DNA of 64,000 bases from Mycoplasmatota bacterium (GCA_018394295.1 CP074573.1:310001-374000); one strand, 5' to 3'; positions 12,038-45,139 are shown, counted from the first letter of the stretch. Notes: generated by a model from the sequence alone, not told the origin. A program made the numbers and translations.

Positions 12038-12041
12038 TAGG

Positions 12042-13275: not shown

Positions 13276-13287
13276 CAAGGTGATACT

Positions 13288-15535: not shown

Positions 15536-15563
15536 TTGTAAAAAGTTAGTAAAAAGGTTAATA

Positions 15564-15805: not shown

Positions 15806-15819
15806 CTAAGGAGTTTGCT

Positions 15820-16242
15820 ATGAAAATTGTAGAAAATACTTTAACTTCTCAAATATTTAGTGAACTGCGAAATACAGGTCCATTTATGCCTTATGAAGAA
15901 GAAGATATAATATATGCTTTAGAACATTCTTTGTTTAATGTGGTAATTTACGATGAGCAAAAAGCTGTTGGAATTGCCAGATTAATTGGAGATAATCGTT
16001 TGACTTTTATTATTAAAGACGTTGTGGTATTGCCTAGGTATCAAAAAATGGGCGTAGGTGATTTATTAATGAAACAACTGTTAAAATATATTGATGCTAA
16101 TGCTTGTGCTAATGCTTATATTGGTCTAATGAGTACCCCACATAAGGAAGGATTTTATGAAAAGTATGGTTTTATTCGAAGACCAAATGAAAAGTATGGT
16201 GCAGGTATGGTGATGTTTTATGAAGGAGGAAAAAATAAGTGA
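15820..16242 (+). CDS. GNAT-family N-acetyltransferase
   Basis: A 140-residue acetyltransferase of the GNAT fold. The acetyl-CoA-binding motif A is VLPRYQKMGVGDLLMKQL near residues 70-90, and FYEKYGF near residue 118 is the usual C-terminal motif. I start at ATG 15820 behind AAGGAG; longer readings begin inside the promoter at 15748-15776 and cannot be translated. It overlaps the ribokinase gene by 4 bases, so it is co-translated with it. The substrate is unknown; a link to nucleoside breakdown is suggested only by the operon. Confidence 0.85.
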   Translation: MKIVENTLTSQIFSELRNTGPFMPYEEEDIIYALEHSLFNVVIYDEQKAVGIARLIGDNRLTFIIKDVVVLPRYQKMGVGDLLMKQLLKYIDANACANAYIGLMSTPHKEGFYEKYGFIRRPNEKYGAGMVMFYEGGKNK

Positions 16243-18081: not shown

Positions 18082-18116
18082 AGTGAATATATATTAAATT
18101 AAAGGGAGGAAAAATC

Positions 18117-19532: not shown

Positions 19533-19560
19533 TTAAAATATATATATTATAAATAATTTT

Positions 19561-19602
19561 AAAAACTGCGCCTTTAAAATTTATAAGGAGCAGTTTTTAA
19601 TT
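19561..19602 (+). terminator. Terminator of the nucleoside operon
   Basis: AAAAACTGC (19561-19569) pairs with GCAGTTTTT (19590-19598); inside the stem CCTT/AAGG adds four more pairs after one mismatch. It ends in TTTTTAATTT. Confidence 0.8.
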
Positions 19603-19698
19603 TGCATATAATAACACTATTTATTAGAATTTTATTATTTATTTACTGAATTTTTATTCGATTTTTGATACAATTATAATTGAAGTGGGTGATGTTAA

Positions 19699-24939: not shown

Positions 24940-26379
24940 ATGAAGAAATTGGTTTACGTTTTAACACTATTTGTATTTGTTATGACTGTAGCAGCTTGTA
25001 ATACTGAAAAGAAATCTACAACAACTACAGAAGAAACTACAACTACAGAGGGAACTACAACTACAGAAGCAACTTGTCCAGGTGGTGTTGTTACAATTAA
25101 ATATGCTAACTGGAACTTAGGTACTGAAGAAGAAAACAATTTAGAAAGAAGAATGATTGCTGAATTCAATGCTCAAGATGAGTGTCGTCAAGTTGTTATC
25201 GATGAAAATATTGACCCAGGTGATTGGGCAGGTTCATTAAACGCAGCAGCAGCTGCTGGAACATTACCAGATGTATTTATGTTACAAACAGTTCCAGATG
25301 CAATCGCTAACGAATGGGTATTAGATATTTCATCATATGTTAAAGATGATGCTGAATGGGATGGTTTAGCAAGTGCTCTAACAGATTCAATTACTTATGA
25401 TAATGAAACATATGCTATTCCATTTGCGATGTTTATCCAAGGTTATTGGATTAACAATGATTTATTCAGACAACATAATGCTTATGCTCCTGAATTCGGA
25501 TTTACATGGGATGAATTTGATAGTGCAATTTCTGCAATGACAAAACCACTTGATGGTGTTGTTGGTCTATCTGAAGAAATATCAGTTGTGGACTATTATC
25601 CTGCACTTAAATCAGAAAATTTAGGTTGGTATTCATTTGATGGATCACAATATAATTTAAATTCATCTGTATTTATTGAAGGTGTAACTAAAGCCAAAAG
25701 TTATTTTGATAACGGATATGTACTAGATGCACAATCTCCTGAAACAAAAGAAAATTATTTTGATAGTCCAGGTTGGTGGGGAGAAGCATGGGACTCAGGT
25801 CATATTGCAATTGCTTGGGAAGCATCTTGGGCATTACCTCATATGATTAATGATTTAACATTTGATTGGGATTTCATTGGATTACCTGATGGTAAAGTTG
25901 TTTTAATTCCTGACTTTTTAGGAGTTTCAGCAGCGTCAGAGCATCCAGAAGTGGCTTATGAATTTGCTAAATGGATGAGTTTTTCAAAAGAAGGATATTT
26001 AAAACGTATTGAAATCGCTAACAACAATGAAGGAATAGTAGTCAATACATTACCATTAATTGATGATGAAGATGTAGTTGATGCTTACTTTGAAACTTTA
26101 GATGTTCGAGGATTACGTGCTGTTTATAATGATTTAGATGCATCAGCTATCGTTGAAGGTGTTAAAGTTATTCCTGGTTATCGTGATTCAAGATGGGATG
26201 CACCAACAGGTATCGCTATGGGAACTCCAGGCGAAGATGGTTATAAAGATAATGCAACAATAAATGACATTCTTTGGAATTCATTTAGAGGAAACTTAAA
26301 CTATAGTGACCATGCTGACGCTATAAACACAATAGCAAACCAAAAATATACAGATGCAAATGCATCTTTAGGTAAGTAG
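24940..26379 (+). CDS. Sugar ABC transporter solute-binding lipoprotein
   Basis: A 479-residue family 1 extracellular solute-binding protein. The signal peptide ends with VAAC (Cys20 lipidated), then a threonine-rich linker at residues 25-45 (TTTTEETTTTEG-like), then the two-lobed binding domain beginning VTIKYANWNLGTEEEN. Aromatic-rich segments (GWWGEAWDSG, WEASWALPH) are typical of oligosaccharide-binding proteins. It would be anchored to the outer face of the membrane and feed oligosaccharides to the permeases downstream. In Listeria innocua a comparable protein next to the GH94/GH3 pair binds sophoro-oligosaccharides; the same ligand is inferred here. GGGAGGAAG precedes the ATG. Confidence 0.9.
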   Translation: MKKLVYVLTLFVFVMTVAACNTEKKSTTTTEETTTTEGTTTTEATCPGGVVTIKYANWNLGTEEENNLERRMIAEFNAQDECRQVVIDENIDPGDWAGSLNAAAAAGTLPDVFMLQTVPDAIANEWVLDISSYVKDDAEWDGLASALTDSITYDNETYAIPFAMFIQGYWINNDLFRQHNAYAPEFGFTWDEFDSAISAMTKPLDGVVGLSEEISVVDYYPALKSENLGWYSFDGSQYNLNSSVFIEGVTKAKSYFDNGYVLDAQSPETKENYFDSPGWWGEAWDSGHIAIAWEASWALPHMINDLTFDWDFIGLPDGKVVLIPDFLGVSAASEHPEVAYEFAKWMSFSKEGYLKRIEIANNNEGIVVNTLPLIDDEDVVDAYFETLDVRGLRAVYNDLDASAIVEGVKVIPGYRDSRWDAPTGIAMGTPGEDGYKDNATINDILWNSFRGNLNYSDHADAINTIANQKYTDANASLGK

Positions 26380-26399: not shown

Positions 26400-29297
26400 A
26401 TGAAAAAGGTACTTAGTTTAGCATTAGTAACCTTTATAGTGATTATCACTTTGGTAGCCGCTATTAGAATCGCTAATGAAAAGAAACCTATTTCAACCTA
26501 TTCTCCTTCCTTTTTATTAAAAGGAAGTCACGAAATATTACCAAGTTCATATGAATTGTTTTACCAAATCAATCAAGAAGATAATGTTGAGGGCTATCAA
26601 ACAGAATTAAATCAATATGATTATGAAGGTAGTACTTTGTATTTGAATGATGGACAAACGGTTACATATGACTTGCATATTTTGGAAGAAGGAGAATATG
26701 AAATAGGTTTTGATTATATAACCCTAAATGATTCAATCGTTCCAATAGAAATTACTATCTTAATTAATGGTGAAAATCAATTGGATCGAAATCTAATTAT
26801 TGATAAATATTGGGTTAAAAACGATAAAGAAAAAAGATTTGACAGAAATAACAATCAAGTTTTACCTCAACAAACACATTATGAAGCTTGGATGACAAAC
26901 TTTTTTAAAGATTTAGATACATTAGAAGATGAAAATATAAAATTTCATTTAGATAAAGGAATAAATCAAATTGAAATCAAAGCAGTAAATGAAACAATTT
27001 TACTTGGAAATGTATATGTAGTAAAGAACAAAATGGTTAAAACATATGATGAATATCGTAACAAATTACCTGAAAAAAATAATGAACTCATCACAATAGA
27101 AGCAGAAGATGTTAGTTATAAAAATGATGTTGGTATAATTATGGGGGTTACTAGAGACCCAAATGTTTCACCTTCAAGCAGTAATTATAACTTATTAAAT
27201 CATTTACCTGATTATTCATTTAGTCAACATGGAAGTGAAGTAAGTTATCATTTTGAGGTAGACCACTCTGGTTATTACAATATTAGTCTAAAATACCAGC
27301 AGAGAAAAAAAGTTCATTCAAATATATTTTTGGATATAAAAATAGACAATGAATTCCCGTTTAAAGAATTAAATAATTACTGTATCAATCCTGCATCTAG
27401 TTGGACAAATACTGTAATAGGAAATCAATTTGGAGGATATCAAATTTATTTAGAAGAAGGACTCCATACACTTACTATCCAAAATGATGTATCTAATTAT
27501 CAAGAAGATTATAAATCGCTTCAACAAATATCAGAAGAGATTAATGATCTTACTTTAAAGATACGAAAAATCACAGGGAATCAAAATGATCCTTATCGTG
27601 AGTGGGACTTAGAAAAATACATTCCAAATATTAAAGATATATTAAGTGATTGGGAAAATGAAATAGCTGAAACCATTCAATCAATTAAGAGAATGAATCC
27701 CCAAGAAAAAAGTAATTATGAGATTAAAAATCTCCAATCTGCTTTAAGAAAAATCAAAGAATTAAAAAGTGATGTTGATAAAATACCGAATAAAATGACC
27801 TTATTATCAGAAGGTTCTAATTCGATTGCACAGACTTTAACCCTTGTTTCAAATTATATAATAGATCAACCTATCTCCATTGATAAAATCTATATTCATG
27901 GTAGTAAAGCTGAATTACCAAAGGCAAAACATAATTTCTTATACAATACCTATTTGAAATATGAAGGAATAATAGCGACGTTCTTTAAAAAAGGTGAGAT
28001 TGAGAATCAAGAGGAAATTAATGTATGGGTAAATCGTCCACGACAAATTGTTAATATCATGCAGCAAATGGTTGATACGACTTTTACAAAAGAGACAGGA
28101 ATAAAAGTTAATTTATCGGTTATGCCTGATGAACAAAAATTGATTTTAGCGAACGCTGCAAGTACACAACCAGATGTCGCCTTAGGTATCAGTAATTGGA
28201 TACCATATGAACTTGCGATAAGGGGGGCCTCTGTTGACTTAAGACAATTTGAAGGTTTTGGAGAATTATTAAATAACTTTCAGTCTGGTGCTATTTTACC
28301 TTATGTATTAGATGATGGGGTTTATGGATTGCCAGAAACACAAGATTTTCAATTAACCTTATATCGTAAAGATATTATGGAGTCATTAAATTTAGAGATT
28401 CCAGAAACTTATGAAGAAATAAAATATATATTACCAACCTTACAACGATATGGGATGAATTTTTTCCTACCATTATCATCAGCAGGAGGATTAAAACCTT
28501 ATGCAGCTACATCCCCGTTTATTTATCAGTATAGTGGAGATTTTTATTCTAGTGATGGATTAAATTCTACTATTAATACCGAGGAATCTTATAAAGCATT
28601 AAAGATGATGACTGATTTATATACCATTTACTCATTACCACAACAAGCACCAAGTTTCTATGAATACTTTAGAAATGGAAAACTTCCAATCGGAGTTGCT
28701 AATTTTTCAGAATATAAAAAACTTTTATTTGCTTCACCAGAATTAGCTGGAAAGTGGAATATAGCACTTCATCCAGGTGTTGAAAATGAAAATGGTGATA
28801 TTGATAGATGGGCTACAGGTTCTGCTCAATCAGTCGTTATGTTTAAAAAATCTTATAAACAATTAGAGTCTTGGGAGTTTATTAAATGGTGGATGTCTAA
28901 AGAAACACAAGTTGATTTTATGCATACTCTCCAATCAGTTCTTGGCTCTGAATATTTATGGAATACTGCCAATGTTGAAGCCTTTAAAGAATTACCAATA
29001 CCTGATGAACATAAGGAAGTAATCTTACAACAATGGCAACATCTAAGAGAAGTTCCACGTGTACCAGGTGGCTATATGGTAGAGCGTGAAGTAAGTAATA
29101 TATGGAATAAAGTTGTATTTGATGGCGTTAATTTACGTTTAGCAATTGATGATGCAACCTTGACTATAAATCGTGAACTTAGAAGAAAGCAAAAAGAATT
29201 TGGTTATATAGAAGGTGATAAAGTGGTCAACAAATACATTGTTCCGACTATTGAACAAGTCGAGTCTTGGAAAGTGAAACCAAAATATAATGAATAG
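26400..29297 (+). CDS. Membrane-anchored fusion: carbohydrate-binding-like domains plus solute-binding domain
   Basis: A large 965-residue exported protein. An N-terminal hydrophobic helix (residues 7-24) without a lipobox should anchor it. Two beta-sandwich regions follow, about 45-205 and 230-365; the second begins TIEAEDVSY and contains [19 protein letters not shown], as in CBM6/35-type modules. A helical, charged region spans about 370-470. The last 420 residues form a family 1 solute-binding domain ([38 protein letters not shown]). Fusion of glycan-binding modules to an ABC binding protein is unusual; it could hold a long glucan at the transporter. It overlaps the next gene by 8 bases. 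Confidence 0.8.
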
Positions 29298-30174
29298 ATT
29301 AAAAAAAATAAATTCAGCTTATTTATTTATATTACCTTATGTAACCATGTTTTTAATCTTTATTGTCTTACCAGTATTTATTGCTTTCATATTAAGTTTC
29401 ACCTATTTTAACGCAGTAGAAGCACCTGAGTTTAATGGTGTACAAAATTATATTTATATCTTGACACAAGATAAAGTATTCATGCAAACAATATTGCCTA
29501 ATACCATTAAGTTTTCTTTAATCGTTGGTCCTGGTGGGTATATCTTATCTTTTCTCCTTGCTTGGATTTTAGCACAAGTTCCTCATAAGCCAAGAACAAT
29601 CTTAGCTTTAATGATATACTCACCTTCTATGACCGCTGGAGTTGCCATAACTGTTTTATGGCAAATCATCTTCAGTGGTGATGAAAAAGGATTAATTAAT
29701 GGATTTTTAATAAATTATAATTTCATAAGTGAACCCATTCAGTGGTTACAATCTCCTGATCATTTGATGATGGTAATGATTATTGTCTCCTTGTGGAGTA
29801 GTATGGGCGTTGGATTTTTGGCAATGCTTGCAGGTGTATTAAATATTAACACTGAAGTATATGAAGCAGCTTATATTGATGGGTTAAGAAATAAATTTCA
29901 AGAAATATTTTATATTACCATGCCATCAATGAAACCACAAATGCTTTTTGGAGCAGTAATGTCAATTGTGGGTACCTTTAGTGCAGGAGCGATTGGGGTT
30001 CAGTTATCAGGAGCTAATCCTACCCCACAAAATTCAGGACAATTAATTGTTAACCATATTGAAGACTATGGTATCTTAAGGTCTGAAATGGGGCTCGCTG
30101 CAGCATTTTCAGTTGTTTTATTAATTATTATTTATGGTATTTCAAAATATGTCAATAAATTATTAAATGATTAG
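29290..30174 (+). CDS. Sugar ABC transporter permease, MalF type
   Basis: A 294-residue permease with six predicted membrane helices and the EAA loop [21 protein letters not shown] near residue 197, which contacts the ATPase. MalF-type proteins pair with a MalG-type partner, here the next gene, to form the channel. The ATG at 29290 overlaps the end of the fusion binding protein. The substrate is inferred from the locus. Confidence 0.92.
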
Positions 30175-30186: not shown

Positions 30187-31056
30187 ATGTCTTATTTTGG
30201 AACAAAAATAAACCCTAAATATCATCATAGAAGTCAAATTAAATTTTACCTATTTGTCTTACCCTTAGCCATCTTTATGGTTTTACCAATTATCTATATT
30301 TTTGTAACAGCATTTAAACCAATTGATGAACTATTCGCCTTCCCACCTCGGTTTTATGTGATTAACCCAACATTAGATAATTTTAGAGATTTAGCTTATA
30401 TGAGTGATAGTAGTGGGTTACCGATGGGGCGTTATATTTTAAATAGTATCTTAGTGACTGGTTTTGTATTAGTTCTATCATTATTATTCAGTACAATGGC
30501 AGGTTTTGCCTTATCAAAAAAACATTTTAAAGGGAAATCTTTATTATTTGAAATTAATACACTAGCGATTATGTTTGTGCCTATTGCCGTTACAATTCCA
30601 AGATTTTTAATCATTAGTAAATTGGGTATTATCAATACCTTTTCAGCACATATTCTACCATTACTAGCTGTTCCTGTTGGATTGTTTTTGGTTAAACAAT
30701 TTATTGATCAAATACCAAATGAATTAATTGAAGCAGCCTATGTGGATGGTGCTAATGATTTTTATATTTATAAAAAGATCATTATTCCTTTAATTAAACC
30801 AGCGATTGCAACCGTTGCAATTTTAGCGTTTCAGTCTACTTGGAATAATGTAGAAACCTCAACTTTGTTTGTAAATAATTCAGAGTTAAAAACATTTGCG
30901 TTTTATTTAAACACATTTGTGACCCAATCAAATGCGGTTGCAGGAGCTGGGATAGCAGCAGCTTCTTCAATGATCATGTTTTTACCTAATTTAATTATAT
31001 TTATCTTTTTACAAAGTAAAATTATGAATACAATGGCTCATTCAGGAATTAAGTAA
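30187..31056 (+). CDS. Sugar ABC transporter permease, MalG type
   Basis: A 289-residue permease with six membrane helices, the EAA loop [21 protein letters not shown] near residue 180 and a C-terminus typical of MalG-like proteins (NTMAHSGIK). It follows the MalF-type gene by 12 bases and has TAGGAGGG before its ATG. The two should form one transporter. No ATP-binding subunit is encoded anywhere in the locus, so they probably share a multi-use MsmX-like ATPase encoded elsewhere. Confidence 0.92.
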
Positions 31057-31067: not shown

Positions 31068-33077
31068 ATGAAAAAATTTACAGAAATCTTAATTATATTT
31101 TTCCTCTTATTTACCCCTTTAGTAAAAGTAAAGGGAGAATCTGCTTACGATACATTTACAATTGATGCAAAAGGGAATTTTGTACCAACCCAAGAAGCTT
31201 TTACAGCGATTGATATTATAAATCTTGATTTAAAAAATCCCAGTGACTTATTTATAGATCAAAACAATAATTTTTATATAGCTGATACAGACAATCATCG
31301 GATTGTTAAATATGATCAGTCAAGTGAAGAAATTACCTATTTAGGTGATTCTGTTTTAGAAAGTCCTACAGGGGTTCATGTAACACAGGATAATCTTATA
31401 TATGTAGCTGATTTTATAAAAGAAGAGATTGTTGTACTTGATACAAAAGGAAATTTAATAAAATCTTTAGCACGACCAGATGAAATCTATTATGGTGAAG
31501 ATATTAAATTTAAACCTCGAAAAGTTGTTGTTGATGAAAATGAAAACATTTATGTAATAACAGAAGGGGGAGTTAACGGGATTGTTCAATTGAACAGTAA
31601 TGGAGATTTCCTAGGTTACTTTGGAGCGAATTCAACAAAACCAACCTTAAAGATGATTATTCAACGGGCAATATTTTCTGAAAAACAATTATCCCAATTA
31701 GCTCAATTAATTCCACCTTCTCCTACGAATATCGCAATAGATAAAGAGTCCATTGTTTATCCAATCTATAAAGGTCAATCAAGTGAAGCACTTAGAAAAT
31801 TAAACTTAAATGGGACAAATGTATTGTTTATGGATTATAATTCTGACTCATTAATTGATATTACAGTTGATAACGATGGGAATATCTATACTATTGATGA
31901 AAATGAGGAAGGAAATATTAGCATTCATGATAGTTTTGGAAACTTATTGTTTCGTTTCGGTGAAAAAAATACCTTGTCGATGCGATTAGGTCAATTTATT
32001 AATCCTAGTAGTATCGCTGTTGATACAAATGGTAATATTTCAGTACTTGATTATCGTACCGGTTCTATTCAGATTTTTACAAAGACTGAATTTGGTGATT
32101 TGGTATTTCAAGGTGTCAAACTATTTAAAGATGGAAAATATACGGAAAGCCAAGGTATATGGGAAGATGTACTAAAACAAAATCCCCGTTTTGCTTTAGC
32201 CCATGTAGGATTAGGAAAAGCGTATTTGAAAAATTCTTTATATCATGATGCCTTAAGAGAATTCAGATTAGGAAATTCAATGAGCGATTATTCTGAAACT
32301 TATTGGGAAATTAGAAATATATGGTTACAACATAATATCATGTATTTTATTGGAATCCTTATCATATTTATTTTTATCAAAAAATGGTTTAATCGTCATA
32401 AACAATCATATGAGCTTTATAAGAAATATCTGAAAACAAGAAATAAGATTCTAAATACTACTTTATTTAAGGAATTATTTTATCTTAAACATATATTGAA
32501 ACATCCTGTGGATACATTTTATGATATAAAGAATAAACGTAAGGTATCGGTAAAAACAGGTCTGCTATTGTATGTGGTTTTATCACTAGTAGTCGTTCTT
32601 TCTACGGTAATAAAAGGGTATCTATTTAGAGGTGAACTTGAACAATTATCCTTACTCAATTTAGCACTATCCTTTACAGCTCCTCTCCTAATTTTTACAG
32701 TGGCAAATCACTTAATGAGTTCTTTACAAAATGGGGAAGGATTTTATCGTGATATTTTTATTGGAGCAATCATTAGTTTTTCACCAATTATTTTGTTTAG
32801 TTTACCGCTTTCGTTGATCACAAATTTCTTAACATTAAATGAAGGATTTATCTATACATTTGCTTATAATATTTTATTTATTTGGTCAGTAATAAATCTT
32901 ATTTTAATGGTCAAAGAGATCCATAACTATAAAATGAAGACATTGATATTAAATCTATTACTAACATTGTTTACAATCATCATTTTAATTGTTTTATTTG
33001 TGATAATTAATATTTTAACAACACAAATGATTCAATTCTTTGAAGGGATTATAAAGGAGGTAAGGCTCAATGCGTAA
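31068..33077 (+). CDS. Exported NHL beta-propeller, TPR and Yip1-like membrane protein
   Basis: A 669-residue protein with a clear order of parts: signal peptide (1-25), an NHL-type beta-propeller (about 50-345; repeats such as NPSDLFIDQNNNFYIADTDN and NPSSIAVDTNGNISVLD), a TPR-like pair of helices (about 345-405), one membrane helix near 415-433, and a C-terminal Yip1-like bundle of about five helices (500-660). The propeller and TPR should lie outside the membrane. It is inside an ABC sugar import operon and overlaps the next gene by 8 bases. Such YIP1-family proteins are often seen next to DUF5696 proteins in Gram-positive sugar loci, but their task is unknown. A scaffold or sensor role is only a guess. 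Confidence 0.75.
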   Translation: MKKFTEILIIFFLLFTPLVKVKGESAYDTFTIDAKGNFVPTQEAFTAIDIINLDLKNPSDLFIDQNNNFYIADTDNHRIVKYDQSSEEITYLGDSVLESPTGVHVTQDNLIYVADFIKEEIVVLDTKGNLIKSLARPDEIYYGEDIKFKPRKVVVDENENIYVITEGGVNGIVQLNSNGDFLGYFGANSTKPTLKMIIQRAIFSEKQLSQLAQLIPPSPTNIAIDKESIVYPIYKGQSSEALRKLNLNGTNVLFMDYNSDSLIDITVDNDGNIYTIDENEEGNISIHDSFGNLLFRFGEKNTLSMRLGQFINPSSIAVDTNGNISVLDYRTGSIQIFTKTEFGDLVFQGVKLFKDGKYTESQGIWEDVLKQNPRFALAHVGLGKAYLKNSLYHDALREFRLGNSMSDYSETYWEIRNIWLQHNIMYFIGILIIFIFIKKWFNRHKQSYELYKKYLKTRNKILNTTLFKELFYLKHILKHPVDTFYDIKNKRKVSVKTGLLLYVVLSLVVVLSTVIKGYLFRGELEQLSLLNLALSFTAPLLIFTVANHLMSSLQNGEGFYRDIFIGAIISFSPIILFSLPLSLITNFLTLNEGFIYTFAYNILFIWSVINLILMVKEIHNYKMKTLILNLLLTLFTIIILIVLFVIINILTTQMIQFFEGIIKEVRLNA

Positions 33078-35244
33078 AGGTTTCAAAATTGGTTTAACAT
33101 TGTTTATTCTATTTATTACAATAACAACTTTTAGAACATTTGCTTACACTGAACCAGTTGTTCATGATAATTTACCAAATCAATCCCAAAACAATTTGTT
33201 GAAATCGAGCTTCTTTACTCATCCTTTAGATCATCTTGTTTATAATCAACCAGAAGTAGAATTATCTAATTATGATATTTTACTCGAAAATGATAGTTTA
33301 AGGGTCTATATTGATGATGAATCATTGGCATTAAGAGTACTTAATAAGGAAACACAATATGTTTGGATGTCTGATTTAGACAATATATACGATGAACGAT
33401 TGAATAGAGACTGGGTTAATTTTGTTCGCTCAGCTGTATCATTTAGCTATTTTAATAGTAAAGAAGTCGTTAAATACGATGATCTCATTAAATCTAAACG
33501 AGACATTACAATAGAGAAAACAGTTCAATCTGATCAAGTACGTTTTGACCTTGATTTTACCTATACTAAAATCAAATTAAGCTTAATCATCAAATTAGAT
33601 GGTAATGCCTTAAGTATAAAGATTCCAAAAGAATCAATTGAAGAATATGGAAAAAATAAATTATTTAAATTACAATTATACCCATTTTTAGGAGCAACAA
33701 AATTTGATGAAATACCAGGATATTCTTTTATTCCTGATGGTAGTGGCGCTTTAGTTCGCTTTCAAAAAAATAATATCATGAAATCAAGTTTTAAGACTCG
33801 TTTCTTTGGTAACGACATCTATTTAAATCCTGTGAATAATGATATTTTACCATTTAATTTACCTGTTTATGGGATGGTTCATGGACATAATCAAAACGCT
33901 ATTTTTTCAGAAGTCACCAGTGGTGCTCAATTTGGTGAGTTTATCATGCAGTTTGCTGGAAATACCACTGACTTTAATTTTAATTATGTTAATTTTCTAT
34001 TAAGAGAAAAATACTTTCATCGTTTAATAGATGATCAAGGAATATCAAAGATAACAGAAGATAGATATCTTTATGATATTGAGGTTATACATAATTTTTT
34101 GAGTAATGAAAAAGCGAATTATATTGGTATGGCACAAACTTACCAAGATAGTTTATTCTATAATGATGAAAAACTGAAAACTGATACAAAAGACATACCT
34201 ATGCATTTAGATGTAATCGCAGCGGATTCTTATCAATCAATTTTGTTTCAAAAATATGTCAAAATGACAACATTAGATGAATTGGTTTCAATTAATAATG
34301 AATTAAAAGATGAAAACATCAATGAGTTATTATTCACTTATAAAGGATATAATAAGGGCGGATTGTCTAAAATCAATTTAAACAACTATCAATTTGATAG
34401 AAGACTAAGAAATCAATCTAGTTTAGATAAATTAGATAATATGTATCTATATTATGAACCTTCTTTAGTCTATGAGAAAGAAGCAGATAAGAAATATCTA
34501 TTACAACAAATTAATCAAAATTATGTATTGATAGATGACTATTATTATTATAATAACAATAAAAGTATCTTAAAAGGAATTCAACATGCTAAAGAATATG
34601 CTACTGATATAGGCACAAATATTGCACTTGATGGCGTGAGCAACCTCTTGTATTCTGATTTAAAAAATAACATCACAAGAGAAGAAATGATTAAACGTCT
34701 CAATGAAAAAATTGTTGATGATATCCCAATGTATAAACCAGCGAGTTATTTATTAAATAAAACCAGTGATTATTTAAATACTGCGAATAGTTCGAATCAA
34801 TATCTTTTTATCACCGATTCAGTTCCATTTGTTCAGACCCTTTTACGAGGATATGTTAATTATTATTCAGAAAACATTAATAATAGTGGTAACAGAACAT
34901 CAGAAATATTAAGATGCGTCGAATATGGAACCTATCCATCTTATCTGATTTCCAATAAATCAAGCTATTATTTAAAGAATGAAATATTTAATGACATATT
35001 TGGGATTGAATATGATTTGTATCGAAATTTGATTGCTGATGAATATCATTATGTGAATGAAGCTTTAAAACATGTTATAGATAGTAAAATTATTTCACAT
35101 CACATCGTACATGAAGGATTAGTCGAAGTGACTTATGATAATGGGATAATAATCATCGTGAATTATAATAATCAAGAAATGAATTACCTAGGAAAGGTAA
35201 TTGAAGGAAAAAATTATATTGTGATAGGTGATCAAAATGAATAG
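33070..35244 (+). CDS. Exported DUF5696-like protein of unknown function
   Basis: A 724-residue protein with a signal peptide (about residues 1-27) and no lipobox or membrane helix after it. The middle segment PGYSFIPDGSGALVRF (near residue 217) and the block LPVYGMVHGHNQNAIF are characteristic of DUF5696 proteins. The second half (about 370-660) has the strand-helix rhythm of a TIM barrel, with acidic-aromatic segments such as LLFTYKGYNKGG and LFITDSVPF. I suspect a degenerate or uncharacterised glycoside-hydrolase-like fold; this is inference from pattern only. The gene has an almost perfect ribosome site, AAGGAGGTAAGG, inside the end of the previous gene and overlaps the following permease gene. 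Confidence 0.7.
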   Translation: MRKGFKIGLTLFILFITITTFRTFAYTEPVVHDNLPNQSQNNLLKSSFFTHPLDHLVYNQPEVELSNYDILLENDSLRVYIDDESLALRVLNKETQYVWMSDLDNIYDERLNRDWVNFVRSAVSFSYFNSKEVVKYDDLIKSKRDITIEKTVQSDQVRFDLDFTYTKIKLSLIIKLDGNALSIKIPKESIEEYGKNKLFKLQLYPFLGATKFDEIPGYSFIPDGSGALVRFQKNNIMKSSFKTRFFGNDIYLNPVNNDILPFNLPVYGMVHGHNQNAIFSEVTSGAQFGEFIMQFAGNTTDFNFNYVNFLLREKYFHRLIDDQGISKITEDRYLYDIEVIHNFLSNEKANYIGMAQTYQDSLFYNDEKLKTDTKDIPMHLDVIAADSYQSILFQKYVKMTTLDELVSINNELKDENINELLFTYKGYNKGGLSKINLNNYQFDRRLRNQSSLDKLDNMYLYYEPSLVYEKEADKKYLLQQINQNYVLIDDYYYYNNNKSILKGIQHAKEYATDIGTNIALDGVSNLLYSDLKNNITREEMIKRLNEKIVDDIPMYKPASYLLNKTSDYLNTANSSNQYLFITDSVPFVQTLLRGYVNYYSENINNSGNRTSEILRCVEYGTYPSYLISNKSSYYLKNEIFNDIFGIEYDLYRNLIADEYHYVNEALKHVIDSKIISHHIVHEGLVEVTYDNGIIIIVNYNNQEMNYLGKVIEGKNYIVIGDQNE

Positions 35245-37075
35245 AAGAAAAAGTAGGGTAGGTTTATTATTTATTTCACCTTGGATTATCGGATTTAGTA
35301 TCTTTACACTCTATCCATTATTATATTCCTTATACTTAAGTTTTCATAAAGTAAAAATTACAGCTCATGGAATTGTACTAACTAAAGTTGGATTTCAAAA
35401 CTACAGTGACATGTTTATAACTGATGTATTATTTCTTGATTACTTAACTGATGAATTAATAACAATGGTTATTATGACAATTGTAATAACGGTATTTTCA
35501 CTAATATTTGCTTTAATATTAAATATGAAAATCCGTTTTAAAGGACTGATTAGAACCATTTTCTTTATCCCTGTTGTTATTATTTCAGGTCCTGTTATTT
35601 CAGAATTAATCGAACAAGGGGCAACACAAGTTATTGATATTTCTAATTTCAATATTATAACCTTAATTACAAATGCTCTTGGTGATAAATTTTCACTTAT
35701 TATCACTACGATATTTGATAAATTAATTTTAATTACTTGGTATTCAGGAATTCAAATTCTAATCTTTCTTGCTGCTTTACAGAAGTTAAATGGTGAATTA
35801 TATGAAGCAGCAGCAATAGATGGTTCTAGTCCTTGGGAATCCTTTTGGAAAATTACGTTACCTTCATTAAAACCAATGATATTAGTTAATATGATTTATA
35901 CTTTCATTTTCTTATCAACATTTTCATTAAATAAAGTAGTCAATCTTATTATAGAAAAGAGATTCAAGCTAGGTGCAGGATTTGGTTATGCATCAGCTAT
36001 GTCATGGTTATACTTTGTCATTATCTTTCTAATGGTTTTAATATTAGTTCTTATTTTTAGAATCGATGTCAAATTTTCAATTAATAAACATAAACAATTT
36101 GGAACATTTAGTTTATTGCATCCAGAGCGATATGAAAATAAGGAGTTCTTATTTTTACAAAAACCTAAGGCTCGAAAAGTTAAGAGAATTGTATTTGGAA
36201 AATTAGGTACCGATGGATGGTTGTTTAAAATATTTATCTACATTTTAGTCTTAAGTATCTTATTTGTTTATCTTTACCCATTAATATTTATGTTACTAAC
36301 AAGTTTACAATCAATGTCTGACTTGAGAAATCCAGGGGTAAATTTGATACCAAGCTCACTTTATTGGGATAATTTTGCGAAAAGTCTTGAAGTTCTCGAT
36401 TATTTTAATACTTTAAAATCGTCCTTCTTTATTTCAGTTGTCCCATCAATCTTATTGGTATTTTCATGTAATTTAGTAGGATACGGGCTAGCGAGATTTA
36501 ACTTTAAAGGTAAAAATATTGTATTTGCTTTAATCTTAATGACCTTTATTGTTCCTTCACAAGTCTTAACAATACCGACCTACCTAATGCTTAAAAAAAT
36601 TGGTTTATTAGGAAATGTTTTAGCGATTATATTACCTGCAACATTTGCCCAAGGGTTAAAACATAGTATTTTCATCTTAATCGCCTACCAATTTTATAAA
36701 TCAATTCCAAAAGTGTTAGATGAGGCAGCAGAAATTGATGGTGCTTCTCCACTTAAGATATTCCTTAGAATTGCCTTACCATTATCAGTTCCAGCATTAC
36801 TTGTCTCATTCCTATTCTCATTTGTTTGGTACTGGAATGAAACATCTACAATATCACAATACTTAGAAAATTATAAAACACTTCCGATTCAATTATCCAA
36901 ATTTGCTGCAACATTTGAAAAACTTTATCCTATGAGTGATTATGTTGATCAAGCAAACAGAAGTATTAAAATGGCAGGAACACTACTTACAATACTACCC
37001 GTTCTAGGTGTATACTTCATTCTACAAAGATGGTTTGTAGAAGGTATCGACAGAACAGGGATAACAGGAGAATAA
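35237..37075 (+). CDS. Fused MalF-MalG type ABC permease
   Basis: A 612-residue protein that contains two complete permease domains in one chain. The first (residues 1-280) has the MalF-type start VGLLFISPWIIGFSIFTLYP and EAA loop EAAAIDGSSPWESFWKITLP near 190. The second (about 330-612) has MalG-type helices and EAA loop EAAEIDGASPLKIFLRIALP near 495. About 50 charged residues link them. Usually these are two genes. The chain is a second channel besides the pair at 29290-31056. The ATG at 35237 is used because AGGTG ends seven bases before it; a GTG at 35228 belongs to that site. Confidence 0.88.
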   Translation: MNRRKSRVGLLFISPWIIGFSIFTLYPLLYSLYLSFHKVKITAHGIVLTKVGFQNYSDMFITDVLFLDYLTDELITMVIMTIVITVFSLIFALILNMKIRFKGLIRTIFFIPVVIISGPVISELIEQGATQVIDISNFNIITLITNALGDKFSLIITTIFDKLILITWYSGIQILIFLAALQKLNGELYEAAAIDGSSPWESFWKITLPSLKPMILVNMIYTFIFLSTFSLNKVVNLIIEKRFKLGAGFGYASAMSWLYFVIIFLMVLILVLIFRIDVKFSINKHKQFGTFSLLHPERYENKEFLFLQKPKARKVKRIVFGKLGTDGWLFKIFIYILVLSILFVYLYPLIFMLLTSLQSMSDLRNPGVNLIPSSLYWDNFAKSLEVLDYFNTLKSSFFISVVPSILLVFSCNLVGYGLARFNFKGKNIVFALILMTFIVPSQVLTIPTYLMLKKIGLLGNVLAIILPATFAQGLKHSIFILIAYQFYKSIPKVLDEAAEIDGASPLKIFLRIALPLSVPALLVSFLFSFVWYWNETSTISQYLENYKTLPIQLSKFAATFEKLYPMSDYVDQANRSIKMAGTLLTILPVLGVYFILQRWFVEGIDRTGITGE

Positions 37076-37077
37076 AA

Positions 37078-38391
37078 ATGAAGCGATTTTCAATAGTATG
37101 TATATCTATTATCACAATGATTTTATTAGTAGGATGCACAGAAAAAAAAGTTACAACTAAAACTACAACGACAACCACAACAACGACAAATACACCATTA
37201 GATGATGTTTTATCTTATGAAATGAAAGGATCATTTGATTTTTTCTGGAATGAAACGATGACAACAGAAAGTCTTAAAAGTTATGGGCTAACGAAGGATA
37301 GAACGAATGGACCAGTTGCCAGTATCGCATCAAGTGGTTTTGCCTTATCCGCTATTCCAATTGGGATTGAAAATGGGTATATCACTTATGATGAAGGATA
37401 TGAACGGGCATTAAAGACATTAAAAAGTTTAAAAGAATTAGAACGTGAGCATGGTTTCTATTATCATTTCTATACCTATTTGACTGGTAAGAAAAGAGAT
37501 GGTGTTGAACTTTCAAATATTGATACAGCAATTTTCATATCAGGTGCTTTATTTGCTGGTGAATATTTTGGTGGAGAAGTAACCACTGTCGCAAAAGAAA
37601 TTTATGATGAAGTAAATTGGCAATGGTTTTATAATGATTCTAAAAATCAATTTTATATGGCATGGTATCCTGACAAAGGGTTTCAAGGTGCTTGGGATTT
37701 CTATGCTGAGCAGTTGATGATGTATGTTTTAGCTGCTGGGTCTGATACTTATCCAGTTGGAAAAGAGGCATATGATGGTTTTATAAAACATGTTGCAACT
37801 TATAAAGATCATACATTCATCCATTCTTGGTTTGGGTCATTGTTTACTTATCAATTCTCCCATGCTTGGATAGATTTTAGAAATATTACAGATAGTAAGG
37901 GAATTAATTGGTTTGATAATTCAGTAGAAGCATCGCTTGCCAATTATGAATATACCCAAAGTCAATCTAGTCGCTTTGAAACATTTAATGAAAATGTCTT
38001 TGGAATGACAGCATCTGATGGACCATTTGGTTATAGTGGTTATTATGGGGCTATGCCATCAGGATATGATAATAAAGCCCATAAAAATGATGGAACAATT
38101 CCACCATGTGGTGCCTTAGGATCAATTGTCTTTACCCCTGAATTATCAATAAACGCTGCAAATTATTTTTATAATGAAATTGGTGAAAAAATTAAAGGGA
38201 AATATGGCTTTACCGATGCTTATAATTTAGATGAAGATTGGTATGCCTCTAGTCATATTGGAATAGATAAAGGAATTACACTTCTTATGATTGAAAATTA
38301 CCGCAATGAAACAATATGGACTCATTTTATGAAAAATGATCAAGTACAAAAAGGATTAGAAACCCTTGGTTTCACTGAAAGTGGGGAATAA
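37078..38391 (+). CDS. Lipoprotein with glycoamylase/GH144-like domain (probable endo-beta-1,2-glucanase)
   Basis: A 437-residue surface lipoprotein: signal peptide with LLVGC (Cys20), threonine-rich linker (about residues 26-38), then a glycoamylase/GH144-like domain. Typical segments are ASSGFALSAIPIGIENGY, SNIDTAIFISGALFAGEYF, WDFYAEQLMMYVLAAG and ASDGPFGYSGYYGAMPSGY. GH144 members with known activity cut beta-1,2-glucan internally by inversion. An outer-surface enzyme of this type would supply oligosaccharides to the binding proteins encoded upstream. ATG 37078 follows AGGAG at 37066-37070, 2 bases after the permease stop. Activity is inferred from family and context. Confidence 0.78.
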   Translation: MKRFSIVCISIITMILLVGCTEKKVTTKTTTTTTTTTNTPLDDVLSYEMKGSFDFFWNETMTTESLKSYGLTKDRTNGPVASIASSGFALSAIPIGIENGYITYDEGYERALKTLKSLKELEREHGFYYHFYTYLTGKKRDGVELSNIDTAIFISGALFAGEYFGGEVTTVAKEIYDEVNWQWFYNDSKNQFYMAWYPDKGFQGAWDFYAEQLMMYVLAAGSDTYPVGKEAYDGFIKHVATYKDHTFIHSWFGSLFTYQFSHAWIDFRNITDSKGINWFDNSVEASLANYEYTQSQSSRFETFNENVFGMTASDGPFGYSGYYGAMPSGYDNKAHKNDGTIPPCGALGSIVFTPELSINAANYFYNEIGEKIKGKYGFTDAYNLDEDWYASSHIGIDKGITLLMIENYRNETIWTHFMKNDQVQKGLETLGFTESGE

Positions 38392-38392
38392 T

Positions 38393-40801
38393 ATGTCCAT
38401 CGTTATAAAAGGTAAGAAAATATATATAAATGGTGAGCCAACACTTATTCAAGCAGGAGAAATTCACTACTACAGATTAAAACAAAGTGAATGGCAAAAA
38501 AGAATTGATGATTTAAAAAGCACAGGGATGAATGCGGTAGCATCGTATATCCCTTGGCTTTGTCATGAAGAAGAAGAAAATCAATTTGACTTTGAAGGAA
38601 AAACACATGAAGAGTTAAATTTAATTAAATTCCTAAAAATGGTAGAAGAGAATGGATTATATTTTATCGCAAGACCAGGTCCATTTGTCATGGCAGAGAT
38701 GAAAAATGATGGAATTCCTTATTGGGTAAGAGAAAAATATCCACATCTAATCCCAAAAACTTGGGATGGGAATAAGGCTACAACCGTTACCCTTGATTAC
38801 TTAAATGAGGATTTTCTACACGTTGTAAAAAAATGGTATGGAAAAGTTATTCCTTTATTAAAAGAATATTCGATTAATGAAGGTGGAAATCTAATCGCTT
38901 GCCAATTAGATAATGAAATTGGAATGTTGTCATGGGTAAGTAATAATCCTGATTTAACTGATACTGTTTTACAAGCATTTAGAACATATCTTAGGGATAA
39001 ATATGAAAATCCATGTCAATATTATGATTTTATTAATGAAGATTTTTCAATATTTGTTGAAAAAATCCGCAAACCTGAAGAGTCATATGTAACTAATTTA
39101 CATGTTGATTTAGGGGAATATATGCGGATAAGAACGATACAGTATGTGAATATATTAAAAGAATATGCAGAAATGTTTGGTTTAAAGGATATTCCATTTT
39201 TAATAAATATTCATGGGACTGGTGGAGGTCGCGCAATGACCTACCCCATTGGAATATCCCAATTATATAAAACTTATCACCAAGATAATTCATTTATTGC
39301 TGGAAGCGATGTTTATTTTGATGATTTAACCGTGCCAAGACTTGTTGATAGTTATATGGCTAATATTTTAACTAATTGTGTAAATAATGAGGATCAACCG
39401 TTAACTTCATTAGAATTTAATGCAGGAAGTAATAATTTTGGTGATGATTATGGTGGAAGAGTAAGAGCTAGTTCAAATAATCTTCGTGTAAGATTATTCA
39501 TTGCCCAAGGCAATCGCTTGCTTAATTATTATTTATTTAATGGAGGCACCAATTATCGTTTTAATAAAAAACGCAATGATGGAAATGACCGTATCGCAAC
39601 AACAGGTGAAGAACATGGATATGCCGCTCCAATCGGACCAAAAGGTGAAAAGACGTATTTATTTGATAAACTAAGTCAAGCAACAAAACTTGTTAATACC
39701 TACAAAGACAAGTTAGCAAGTGCCGTTGTTTTACATGATACAATCAGTTTTGCATTTATTCCTGATTACTTTATGACGGAGTTTAGTTATCCTAAGAGTC
39801 AAAAAATACGAAAAATTCATGATAATATTGCTCGTAATCGAGCTAATTTTGCTTGGGATAGTGTGTGTCGAGCAATGTTATTGTTAAATTATCAATTTAA
39901 TGCAGTTAATATTCAAGATAATGAAATTGATAGTAAGCATACAAAAGTCTTAATATTACCATCTAGTCTATATATGGCTAAAAAGATTCAAGAAAAAATA
40001 GTGAAATACTTAGCCTCAGGAGGAAAAGTTTTACTTTATGGAGAAGTTCCAATGTATGATTTAGAAGGTAATGCCTGCTCTATCTTAGCTAATGTATTAG
40101 GTGTTAAGTTTAACAAAGTCATCACAGATAACCAATCTCATTATATCCCATCGGTAGAATGTGCTAACTTTTTGAAAGGATTAAAAGCCTATCATGTCTA
40201 TTATAATTTAGCTTATCATTTAACCAAGGGACATCCGATTCTAAAGTTATATGATACTGATGAAACAGTTGGATTTGAAATCAATAATTCAAGTGGTCAT
40301 TTAATTGGTATTACTTGTCAATATCCTTGTCATTTAGATGCTTTCGAACGCATCTTTAACAGATTTGGTATTCAAAATAGAGTAAGACATACCGATTCCT
40401 ATCATGGGGTATATATATTATCGACTAAAAATGAGATAGAAGAAAAATTCATCCATGTTTTAAATTTAGATGATGTTAAAAAGAAAGTCCAAATAATTGA
40501 AGACGATGAAGTTTTATTTGAAGGAAATAGAATTGAAATTGAAGAAAATGATGGGTTACTTTTACCAATGAATATGAAATTAAAACAAGCTCATATTTAT
40601 TATTCAACCAATGAAATTATTGAATTTGATGAAGATACCATTACCTTTAGATTAACAGGTAGTCAATTAGTTTGTAAGTTAAAATCAAATCGTAGGATTA
40701 TGCCGGGACCGTTTAAAATTCATTATGAAAATGATTATATTTATATATTTAAAGAATCTAGACTTTACAATGAACATACATTGGTTGTACAATTTAAATA
40801 A
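38393..40801 (+). CDS. GH35 family glycoside hydrolase/transglycosidase, paralogue 2
   Basis: An 802-residue GH35 enzyme related to the one at 22556. It has IHYYRLKQSEWQKRI near residue 24, ARPGPFVMAE near 93, acid/base Glu175 in CQLDNEIG and nucleophile Glu341 in SLEFNAGSN. No signal peptide. It starts one base after the stop of the GH144-like gene, with GTGGGGA overlapping that gene's end, so the two are co-translated. Both GH35 copies keep their catalytic residues but differ widely elsewhere, which suggests different chain-length or linkage preferences. Beta-galactosidase is the default name; in this setting action on beta-1,2-linked glucosides is more likely (inference). Confidence 0.85.
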   Translation: MSIVIKGKKIYINGEPTLIQAGEIHYYRLKQSEWQKRIDDLKSTGMNAVASYIPWLCHEEEENQFDFEGKTHEELNLIKFLKMVEENGLYFIARPGPFVMAEMKNDGIPYWVREKYPHLIPKTWDGNKATTVTLDYLNEDFLHVVKKWYGKVIPLLKEYSINEGGNLIACQLDNEIGMLSWVSNNPDLTDTVLQAFRTYLRDKYENPCQYYDFINEDFSIFVEKIRKPEESYVTNLHVDLGEYMRIRTIQYVNILKEYAEMFGLKDIPFLINIHGTGGGRAMTYPIGISQLYKTYHQDNSFIAGSDVYFDDLTVPRLVDSYMANILTNCVNNEDQPLTSLEFNAGSNNFGDDYGGRVRASSNNLRVRLFIAQGNRLLNYYLFNGGTNYRFNKKRNDGNDRIATTGEEHGYAAPIGPKGEKTYLFDKLSQATKLVNTYKDKLASAVVLHDTISFAFIPDYFMTEFSYPKSQKIRKIHDNIARNRANFAWDSVCRAMLLLNYQFNAVNIQDNEIDSKHTKVLILPSSLYMAKKIQEKIVKYLASGGKVLLYGEVPMYDLEGNACSILANVLGVKFNKVITDNQSHYIPSVECANFLKGLKAYHVYYNLAYHLTKGHPILKLYDTDETVGFEINNSSGHLIGITCQYPCHLDAFERIFNRFGIQNRVRHTDSYHGVYILSTKNEIEEKFIHVLNLDDVKKKVQIIEDDEVLFEGNRIEIEENDGLLLPMNMKLKQAHIYYSTNEIIEFDEDTITFRLTGSQLVCKLKSNRRIMPGPFKIHYENDYIYIFKESRLYNEHTLVVQFK

Positions 40802-41824: not shown

Positions 41825-44800
41825 ATGAAATTGGGGAAGGATATAAAAACAATAGAAGTAAAAAAGGATGGAATCACTTTTAGATTATTAGAATCTGGTG
41901 ATATCCTTTCTATTAATAAAGACAATATTCAGTTAAATCAATATAGAGGTAATTATATTGATGGAACAGTTACGAATATATATTTGCGAGTTAAAAAGAA
42001 TAATCAGTATAAATATACACCCTTAATAGGGGTAAAATCACCGAGTGAGTTTAAAACTTCTGATAACGAAGTAATTTATCAGGGTGTATTTGAAGAGATA
42101 AAATACCAACTTAAATTAACTGTCTTCAATGCCTCTTGGTTTTATCAAATAACACTAAAGAATCAAACAAATGAAAAAAAGATAGTCGATGTATTTTATG
42201 GGCAAGATGTTAATTTAGCTCCAGCTGGTGGTAATGAAGCATATATTAGTCAATATATTGACCATCAAGTGTTTGATAATGAGAATGGTTTTGTCGTTTG
42301 TTCAAGACAGAATATGTTTCAACCAGCTTATTTACAAATTGGTTCAATGACAAAAAATATAGCTTATGCGACAGATGGTTTTCAATTTTTTGGAAAAGGT
42401 TTTAAAACAAAAAGACAACCTGCTGCACTTAATCAAAAAGAATTATCTAGTCAAGTATATCAATATGAGTTTGCCTATACTTGTTTACAATCAGAATCAA
42501 TTGATTTAATTGATGAAGAGAATATAGTTTTTTATGGTTTATATAAAGACGATCATAAAGAAGCAGTCACTCAAATTGAATATACTGAAGAAGTGTTAAA
42601 TGACTATCATCAATTGACCACCAATGATTTCATAGGTAACTTTTCAAAGGTCTCATTATCTATTGATGTAGATGATGTGATTAATGGTTGTGATTTACAA
42701 CTTGAAGAGGTAAATACTTTATTTCCTAATCGTTATCATGAAGAGTGTGATGAAGGATTATTATCATTCTATCTAAATAATAAATCACATGTTGTATTAA
42801 AAAGAAAAGAACAACTTGTTGAACGTCCTCATGGTCACATCTTGTTAAATGGTAATGTAAATGAAATAAAAGATAATGTTTATTCAACAACAAATTTTAT
42901 GTATGGTATTTTTAATTCACAAATTGTTTGTGGAAATACTTCATTTAATAAAATGATTTCAAATGCGAGAAATGCGCTTAATCTACTAAAGACAAGTGGA
43001 CAAAGAATATATGTTAAATTAAATGGATGCTATCAAATCTTAAATATGCCATCCGCTTATGAAATGGGACTTAATTATACGAAATGGTATTACAAACTAT
43101 CAAATGAGATGATTATTGTTACCGTTTATACAAACTTTAATGGGCAAACCATTGTAATGGATATCGAGTCAACTAATCAACATGATTTTATGATTACAAA
43201 CCACATGGTCATGGGAGTAGATGAATACGCTCATCAGATTGAGTATCTTAAAGAAGGAAATAGCTTAACCTTTAAAGTTGATTCTGATACATTTACAGCG
43301 AATCAATATCCTAACTTAACTTTTAAACTAGAATCAACACAAGATTTTACTGTTGTCCATGATGAAATTTTTTATGAAGACAAGTTAGATAGATGTGAAC
43401 CTTTAGTGAATTTACTATTTAATCAAACTAAAAAGATTAGTTTACAAATAAAAGGTGATGTACATGGACAAATTGATGATAATAAAGTTAGTGATTTAAG
43501 TAGTGAATTAACTCAATTTATTAACTATTATCAAGAAAATGTGAATCATTTTAATATCAGTATTAATAATGAATCTAGCCAAGAAATCGATAAATTTAAT
43601 TATTTAATATATTGGTATACACATAATGCTTTAATTCATTATGCTTCACCTCATGGATTAGAACAATATGGTGGAGCAGCTTGGGGAACTCGTGATGTTT
43701 GTCAAGGTCCTTTTGAGTATTTCTTAGCGACACAAAAATTTAGTATTTGTAAAGCAATTTTAAAGAAAGTTTATGCCCATCAATTCTTAGAAAATGGCGA
43801 CTGGCCACAATGGTTTATGTTTGATAAATACAGTAATGTACAAGCAAGTGAAAGCCATGGAGATATTATTGTTTGGCCACTTCGATCATTAGCATTGTAC
43901 TTAAAAGCAACAAGTGATTATTCGATATTAGATGAAGAAATGCCTTATGTAACCCTAAAGAATATGACATTTACAGAAGAAAAAGAAACCTTATTAAGCC
44001 ATGTCAAAAAACAAATTGAACATATGACTGATAATCTTATTCAAAATACCCATTTATCGATCTATGGTGATGGTGATTGGGATGATACTTTACAACCAGC
44101 TAATCCTGAATTGAGAAAAAATATGGTGTCTGGTTGGACGACTGCTTTGACCTATGAAGCATTTCATTTATTAAGTGAATACTTAAATGAAGAGAATCTA
44201 GAATTAAAACAACTGTTAAAAGAGTTATCGATAAAAATTAAAGAAGATTATTTAGCATATGTCATAAAAGATAAAGTACCAGCTGGTTTCTTATTATTTG
44301 ATCAAGATAAAATTAAATACATTGTTCATCCTGAAGATAAAAAGACAGGTGTTAAGTATCGTTTATTACCGATTAATCGTTGTTTTATTAGTGGTTTATT
44401 TGATAAAGAAGATGTTAATCATTACTTTGAATTAGTAAAAGAACATTTATATCATCCAGATGGTGTAAGATTAATGGATACAACAGTAAACTATCAGGGT
44501 GGAGTGAATACTTATTTTAAAAGGGCTGAACAAGCAGCGAATTTCGGTCGTGAAATTGGTTTACAGTATGTTCATGCACATATCCGTTTTGTTGAAGCAA
44601 TGGCTAAAATTGGTTATAAAGATGAAGTTTATAAAGGATTAATGCGAATAAATCCAATTAATATACAAAAACATGTACCTAATGCTGAAATAAGACAAAG
44701 TAATTGTTATTTCTCTAGTTCTGATGCTAAATTCAACAATCGATATGAGGCAATGAAGAATTTTGATAAATTAAGAACAGGTGATGTTGCAGTAAAAGGT

Positions 44801-45139
44801 GGATGGAGAGTTTATTCTTCAGGTCCTGGGATTTATTTATATCAATTGATATGTAATTTTCTAGGAATAAGAATTGAACAAGGTGATTTATTATTAGACC
44901 CGCAAATTCCAACGTATTTAAATGGTCTTACTTTCCAATATAGATATATGAATAAAATAATTAATTTCCATTATCAAATGAAAGAAAATCAAAAAATCAA
45001 CCAAATAACTATCAATGGAAATGAAGTTAAGTTTTCTAATATAGTTAATCCTTATCGAGTTGGAGGAGCTATCATCAAAAAAGAAGTATTAGAGAAATAT
45101 TTAACAGAAGATATCAATAAAATTAATATTATGTTGTAA
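41825..45139 (+). CDS. GH94 family phosphorylase, probable 1,2-beta-oligoglucan phosphorylase
   Basis: At 1104 residues this is a long GH94 enzyme, the size of 1,2-beta-oligoglucan phosphorylases and longer than cellobiose phosphorylases (about 800). The catalytic barrel shows AAWGTRDVCQGPFEYFLAT, GDWPQWFMFDKY, ESHGDIIVWPL and GDWDDTLQPANPELRKNMVSG; Asp754 aligns with the general acid of the family. It lacks a signal peptide. The reaction would be phosphorolysis of beta-1,2-oligoglucosides to glucose-1-phosphate and a shorter chain, saving ATP. In Listeria innocua the homologous gene is also next to a GH3 gene and a binding-protein operon. Substrate is strongly suggested but not proven by sequence. 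Confidence 0.85.
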   Translation: MKLGKDIKTIEVKKDGITFRLLESGDILSINKDNIQLNQYRGNYIDGTVTNIYLRVKKNNQYKYTPLIGVKSPSEFKTSDNEVIYQGVFEEIKYQLKLTVFNASWFYQITLKNQTNEKKIVDVFYGQDVNLAPAGGNEAYISQYIDHQVFDNENGFVVCSRQNMFQPAYLQIGSMTKNIAYATDGFQFFGKGFKTKRQPAALNQKELSSQVYQYEFAYTCLQSESIDLIDEENIVFYGLYKDDHKEAVTQIEYTEEVLNDYHQLTTNDFIGNFSKVSLSIDVDDVINGCDLQLEEVNTLFPNRYHEECDEGLLSFYLNNKSHVVLKRKEQLVERPHGHILLNGNVNEIKDNVYSTTNFMYGIFNSQIVCGNTSFNKMISNARNALNLLKTSGQRIYVKLNGCYQILNMPSAYEMGLNYTKWYYKLSNEMIIVTVYTNFNGQTIVMDIESTNQHDFMITNHMVMGVDEYAHQIEYLKEGNSLTFKVDSDTFTANQYPNLTFKLESTQDFTVVHDEIFYEDKLDRCEPLVNLLFNQTKKISLQIKGDVHGQIDDNKVSDLSSELTQFINYYQENVNHFNISINNESSQEIDKFNYLIYWYTHNALIHYASPHGLEQYGGAAWGTRDVCQGPFEYFLATQKFSICKAILKKVYAHQFLENGDWPQWFMFDKYSNVQASESHGDIIVWPLRSLALYLKATSDYSILDEEMPYVTLKNMTFTEEKETLLSHVKKQIEHMTDNLIQNTHLSIYGDGDWDDTLQPANPELRKNMVSGWTTALTYEAFHLLSEYLNEENLELKQLLKELSIKIKEDYLAYVIKDKVPAGFLLFDQDKIKYIVHPEDKKTGVKYRLLPINRCFISGLFDKEDVNHYFELVKEHLYHPDGVRLMDTTVNYQGGVNTYFKRAEQAANFGREIGLQYVHAHIRFVEAMAKIGYKDEVYKGLMRINPINIQKHVPNAEIRQSNCYFSSSDAKFNNRYEAMKNFDKLRTGDVAVKGGWRVYSSGPGIYLYQLICNFLGIRIEQGDLLLDPQIPTYLNGLTFQYRYMNKIINFHYQMKENQKINQITINGNEVKFSNIVNPYRVGGAIIKKEVLEKYLTEDINKINIML

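Follow-up and report, generated by a model that had tools for sequence, protein, structure and literature searches.

What does a DUF5696 protein do in the middle of a set of sugar-import genes? The question is raised by a stretch of 64,000 nucleotides from a Mycoplasmatota bacterium (GCA_018394295.1, CP074573.1:310001-374000), hereafter the window, in which an open reading frame (ORF) starting with ATG at 33070 and stopping at 35244 codes for a protein of 724 amino acids. The original prediction, made from the sequence alone, described its product as a DUF5696-like protein hiding a possible glycoside hydrolase (GH) fold, exported and coupled to sugar import. Our analysis points to a GH129/GH101-type fold and to a probable role as a recruited, non-catalytic subunit of a carbohydrate ATP-binding cassette (ABC) importer.

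The ORF is real. Its product matches PF18952 (DUF5696) over residues 150-716 with 411 bits (E 1e-122; curated cut-off 25.6 bits), in line with the predicted family identity, and a scan against NCBIfam gave no informative match. An ortholog with 72% identity occurs in a genome of the same family, and the ratio of nonsynonymous to synonymous divergence (dN/dS about 0.14, dS about 1.2) indicates purifying selection. The claimed coupling to sugar import was confirmed by importer genes that overlap the ORF on both sides, 8 nucleotides being shared with the upstream NHL/Yip1 gene and 17 with the fused permease gene downstream; the sole sign of the claimed export is a hydrophobic N-terminal helix (MRKGFKIGLTLFILFITITTF), and no lipobox was found in the protein.

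Homologues were assembled from public genomes, and an alignment of 78 of them allowed AlphaFold to build a model with a predicted local distance difference test score (pLDDT) of 91.4 and a predicted template modelling score (pTM) of 0.90; the single-sequence run reached a pLDDT of 32. In the model, an N-terminal helix is followed by a beta-sandwich, a (beta/alpha) barrel, and C-terminal helices with a small beta domain (residues 633-724). The beta-sandwich first half and strand-helix second half read earlier from the sequence are recovered as a beta-rich region at 60-345 and an alternation at 346-632. A barrel is present, and the refuting outcome named with the original prediction, a structure lacking one, did not occur. 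Foldseek against the Protein Data Bank (PDB) placed ZgGH129/DagB first (E 2.5e-31), then the GH129 enzyme NagBb (from 1.7e-20), GH101 (3.5e-18), and GH36 and GH31. The suspected glycoside hydrolase fold is thereby specified as a predicted GH129/GH101-type fold, composed of an N-terminal beta-sandwich, a (beta/alpha)8-type barrel and a C-terminal beta domain. A structural search of viral proteins at E <= 0.001 yielded no relative of the model. Identification as a GH144/GH162-like beta-1,2-glucanase was rejected, the fold being wrong and GH144 being a separate gene at the locus; solute-binding proteins (SBPs) are also encoded by separate genes, and this identity was rejected as well.

Sequence profiles led to the same family independently of structure. 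The DUF5696 family profile recovered ZgGH129 and NagBb with hmmsearch (E about 2e-6), and profile-profile alignment (hhalign) with four NagBb-like GH129s from genomes of the same bacterial class (loci L124-L127, found via the GH101 model) was collinear over residues 338-707 (E 1.2e-11). One of these four matches NagBb at E 4e-147, and the DUF5696 model scores 69.5 bits on that same enzyme. The window protein alone (phmmer, single sequence) had no match in PDB, GH129 being reached only by the family profile, and direct alignment of DUF5696 with GH101 gave a profile similarity too weak for use. Because the Foldseek, family-profile and profile-profile matches agree, DUF5696 is considered homologous to GH129 on the combined grounds of sequence and predicted structure. 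The Pfam GH129 model (PF11308) found no match in the genomes scanned, which is no evidence of absence because a true NagBb-like GH129 of this class falls below its cut-off. One such protein, L124, lies below the GH129 cut-off and above those of DUF5696 and GH101, so that Pfam labels mislead here.

The best whole-protein structural match, ZgGH129/DagB, is an alpha-1,3-(3,6-anhydro)-D-galactosidase (5opq, 8rzk) with template modelling scores of 0.63/0.68, in which a strip of the N-domain and the barrel align with DUF5696. Identity is about 14%. ZgGH129 is catalytically active as a soluble, dimeric exo-enzyme and comes from a carrageenan cluster of Bacteroidota (PMC5698469), whereas DUF5696 is linked to an importer and has no conserved catalytic set. 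GH101 endo-alpha-N-acetylgalactosaminidase (5a59) is of the same fold class, but the GH101s are far larger and multidomain. NagBb, an alpha-N-acetylgalactosaminidase, shares the fold (5wzn, E 2.9e-20), but its E478 is replaced in DUF5696, and its metal-site residues and Trp398 loop are missing.

NagBb has two known catalytic residues. One of them, D435, corresponds to D486 of ZgGH129 (PMC5698469) and aligns with D521 of DUF5696. In the numbering of the NagBb sequence, position 478 is the first Glu of an SSEE motif. We take this E478 to be the second catalytic residue, the acid/base. The window protein carries Tyr555/Lys556 at that site and no acid/base Glu; of the 78 homologues, 39 have Tyr and 14 have Glu at position 555. 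The strict Asp+Glu pair is found in 3 of the 78 (9 under a generous tolerance) and in no member of set A1, which consists mostly of longer-form relatives, and four control GH129s aligned identically retain both residues. Three of the four positions changed in the NagBb quadruple mutant (5wzq), presumably metal ligands, are not conserved in DUF5696, and the beta1 position is not reliably aligned; the beta2 His and Asp correspond to T423 and K425 of the window protein, and the beta3 His to Y461. By these alignments, the catalytic pair is lost across the DUF5696 family, and most of the metal ligands of GH129 are missing. The strongest conservation lies in the signature GYxFIPDGSGAL, in the beta domain and not in the barrel. 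In the alignment check for acidic pairs suggested at the outset, the GH129 pair is not kept, and D223, D386, D583 and E618 are strongly conserved.

The genetic setting of DUF5696 follows a fixed order: large SBP, permease 1, permease 2, NHL/TPR(-Yip1) protein, DUF5696, permease 3 and permease 4. Of the 80 named loci, which are those closest to the window protein and belong to Bacillota, Chloroflexota, Thermotogota and Spirochaetota, 77 have the NHL gene upstream, 76 a permease downstream, and 73 both; each of the seven exceptions is at a contig end and does not contradict the order. In a second, deliberately diverse sample of DUF5696 genes within the class, 18 of 18 lie in the module, several contigs or stretches stopping short of its full upstream part. 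Reciprocally, DUF5696 adjoins NHL-Yip1 in 30 of 30 NHL-Yip1 loci. Linkage of DUF5696 to the importer genes is obligate. The glycosidase genes around the module differ from locus to locus, and this genome has three DUF5696 copies, including that of the window, each beside different catabolic genes: the gene follows the transporter, not any one substrate. A hydrolase function outside the cell, possibly on beta-1,2-glucan, as the original prediction implied, finds no support here, the pair not being conserved and a GH144-type enzyme being already encoded two genes downstream of DUF5696.

Given that the catalytic machinery is mostly lost and the import-gene setting is constant, DUF5696 is most likely part of the importer and not a free enzyme. 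It would be an extracytoplasmic GH129/GH101-type homologue, N-terminally anchored or secreted. Whether a one-time glycosidase or a sister of the glycosidases, it would have been recruited into the core of a carbohydrate ABC importer that contains two pairs of permeases. Placed between the large SBP and the permeases, it may hold an oligosaccharide in a remodelled barrel cleft and/or prop and gate the importer, the ligand most likely not being hydrolysed by the GH129 mechanism. ATP hydrolysis would be supplied by an ATPase encoded elsewhere; the genome yielded a single OB_MalK-type ATPase, about 1.85 Mb from the module. In the window, the cargo would most likely be beta-1,2-glucooligosaccharides, which the GH144-type enzyme would produce outside the cell and GH94, GH3 and GH35 would break down within it. 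We infer the complex, the glycan binding, the inactivity and the cargo, and hold this explanation with moderate confidence.

Like the type I carbohydrate ABC importers that share an MsmX-type ATPase, the module has an SBP, EAA-motif permeases and an ATPase encoded elsewhere, but the usual number of membrane units in a type I importer is two (PMC7658222), and the two permease pairs, the NHL/TPR-Yip1 protein and DUF5696 are extras. All four permease units of the window module keep the EAA coupling motif and may form two translocators or one larger assembly.

Several points weigh against a non-catalytic importer subunit. Physical association is indirect, through gene order, and the acid/base assignment depends on aligning profiles that share about 12% identity. 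Among the 78 homologues, D223 is conserved in 100%, D386 and E618 are always Asp or Glu, and D583 is Asp or Glu in 91%; these residues could belong to a different active site. Moreover, where the locus has beta-1,2-glucan markers, 23 of 30 members keep Asp521, compared with 11 of 32 others (Fisher p 0.001, phylogeny not corrected), and it is above all this retention that leaves room for an altered mechanism or active site. DUF5696 could then be catalytically active, as a glycoside hydrolase or transglycosidase whose rewired site (Asp521 with a further acid, for instance D223, D386, E463, D583 or E618) would trim oligosaccharides at the mouth of the importer. ZgGH129 requires four acids, one of them from the N-domain, and has only one catalytic residue in common with NagBb (PMC5698469), so that acid/base residues do migrate in this fold. 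In DUF5696, Asp521 occupies the GH129 nucleophile position, several acids are near-invariant, and the stretches that follow the barrel strands show higher conservation than the barrel does on average (permutation p 0.006, the segments having been drawn with conservation in view). Such an enzyme is nevertheless unlikely: Asp521 is missing in half of the family despite the same module, D386 and E618 swap Asp and Glu freely, which is unusual for catalytic residues and argues against classical catalysis there, and known relatives with this type of fold act on alpha-glycosides whereas the window locus handles beta-1,2-glucan.

The opposite possibility is that DUF5696 serves solely in the assembly or stability of the importer and makes no contact with glycan, following the logic of the 4F2hc/rBAT heavy chains. 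The ectodomains of these subunits of heteromeric amino-acid transporters belong to the alpha-amylase family and have been termed fake or orphan alpha-glucosidases (PMC8537225). By analogy they are the nearest conceptual precedent for DUF5696, with a glycosidase-fold ectodomain on a single N-terminal helix serving a transporter, although the fold family and the transporter type are different. Consistent with such a role are the predicted helix and ectodomain, the obligate permease linkage in differing catabolic contexts, and the peak of conservation (the PDGSG part of the signature) outside the barrel. However, the conservation of the barrel strand-end segments suggests a retained pocket and residue 521 varies with the catabolic neighbourhood (the uncorrected Fisher comparison above), which makes a role without glycan contact quite improbable. 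A free secreted or surface protein that binds or degrades glycan and shares the operon merely for co-expression would fit the predicted export and the glycan-utilisation locus, but the constant position of DUF5696 in four phyla, with the Yip1 gene before it and permease 3 after it whatever enzymes lie nearby, and the overlap with both neighbours in the window render it very improbable.

While the fold is already known, the linked, probably non-catalytic importer part proposed for DUF5696 is, to our knowledge, a new role. No mention of DUF5696 and no combination of the module's annotation terms was found in the open-access literature; as most subscription journals lie outside this scope, the word undescribed is provisional. 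The recruited-subunit reading gives DUF5696, annotated as of unknown function, a known fold and a role as importer subunit that can be tested, in an importer layout with four permease units where the textbook has two. Should binding be all that the barrel does, this would be a bacterial example of a glycosidase fold serving a transporter. More tentatively, and with some doubt, two EAA-type permease pairs, a large domain-fused SBP, an NHL/TPR-Yip1 scaffold and a pseudo-glycosidase ectodomain could work as one machine, an undescribed importer class that has adapted to many different cargoes across Bacillota, Chloroflexota, Thermotogota and Spirochaetota. Modules of this type are common, and the beta-1,2-glucan version is genetically testable in culturable Bacillus and Paenibacillus relatives.

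Table 1. Features of the DUF5696 protein and of the surrounding importer and beta-1,2-glucan genes (positions in the window).
Feature	Position	Strand	Evidence or remark
DUF5696 protein, 724 amino acids, predicted GH129/GH101-type fold	33070..35244	+	PF18952 E 1e-122; AlphaFold pLDDT 91.4, pTM 0.90; Foldseek ZgGH129 5opq E 2.5e-31
N-terminal hydrophobic helix, residues 2-26 (signal peptide or uncleaved anchor)	33073..33147	+	helix in model; sequence MRKGFKIGLTLFILFITITTFRTFA
Beta-rich (beta-sandwich) domain, residues 60-345	33247..34104	+	model secondary structure; residues ~68-101 resemble ZgGH129 N-domain 19-52
Family signature GYxFIPDGSGAL, residues 217-228	33718..33753	+	G217, Y218, P222, D223, G224, G226 invariant in 78
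(beta/alpha) barrel, residues 346-632, strand-helix alternation	34105..34965	+	predicted model
Asp521, aligned to GH129 nucleophile (NagBb D435)	34630..34632	+	profile alignment; Asp in 39/78 homologues
Tyr555, at GH129 acid/base Glu position (NagBb E478)	34732..34734	+	profile alignment
Second solute-binding lipoprotein	24940..26379	+	Pfam SBP_bac_1
Large SBP; SBP domain ~540-920 like Lin1841, long N-terminal region	26400..29297	+	Pfam SBP_bac_1; 5ysb E 6e-12
ABC permease 1	29290..30174	+	BPD_transp_1; EAA motif
ABC permease 2	30187..31056	+	BPD_transp_1; EAA motif
NHL repeats, TPR, then Yip1 membrane domain	31068..33077	+	Pfam NHL E 3.7e-18, Yip1 E 3.1e-11
ABC permeases 3+4 fused, one ORF	35228..37075	+	Pfam BPD_transp_1, two stretches; EAA motifs at residues 193, 499
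Exported GH144-type endo-beta-1,2-glucanase relative	37030..38391	+	PF10091; 5gzh E 6.7e-49
GH35, beta-1,2-glucosyltransferase-like	38366..40801	+	7vkx E 2e-60 (PMC8861115)
GH94 1,2-beta-oligoglucan phosphorylase relative	41825..45139	+	5h3z E 4.6e-274
GH3, beta-glucosidase type	45149..47356	+	family scan

By its gene content, the window locus is identified as a beta-1,2-glucan locus. Lin1841, which the large SBP resembles, is presumably the sophorooligosaccharide-binding protein of Listeria innocua. A protein of this species with that binding activity has been described (PMC8861115). At 965 amino acids the module SBP is unusually large, with about 500 residues N-terminal to the SBP domain that have no good Pfam match. 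The fusion of permeases 3 and 4 forms a 615-amino-acid ORF here and in some relatives (e.g. L138 and L143); other genomes have two separate genes. Some DUF5696 proteins exceed 1000 residues, with ORFs of 1322 amino acids at L128 and L129 and of 1017-1194 at L130-L134.

The second module of this genome (L118, G000:C1:480000-499900, 1266-19886) adjoins NamZ, GH3, a BadF-type kinase and AnmK, neighbours which suggest that it imports peptidoglycan-derived sugars. The third (L117, G000:C1:262000-281900, 1150-19138) adjoins a NAGPA phosphodiester glycosidase, two GHL10 glycosidase-like proteins and a DUF624 protein. Finally, a plasmid of Paenibacillus cellulosilyticus (NZ_CP054609.1, L119/L121) carries a complete module with its own adjacent ugpC ATPase, beside several LLM-class flavin-dependent oxidoreductases, a hint that its cargo may be other than an ordinary glycan.

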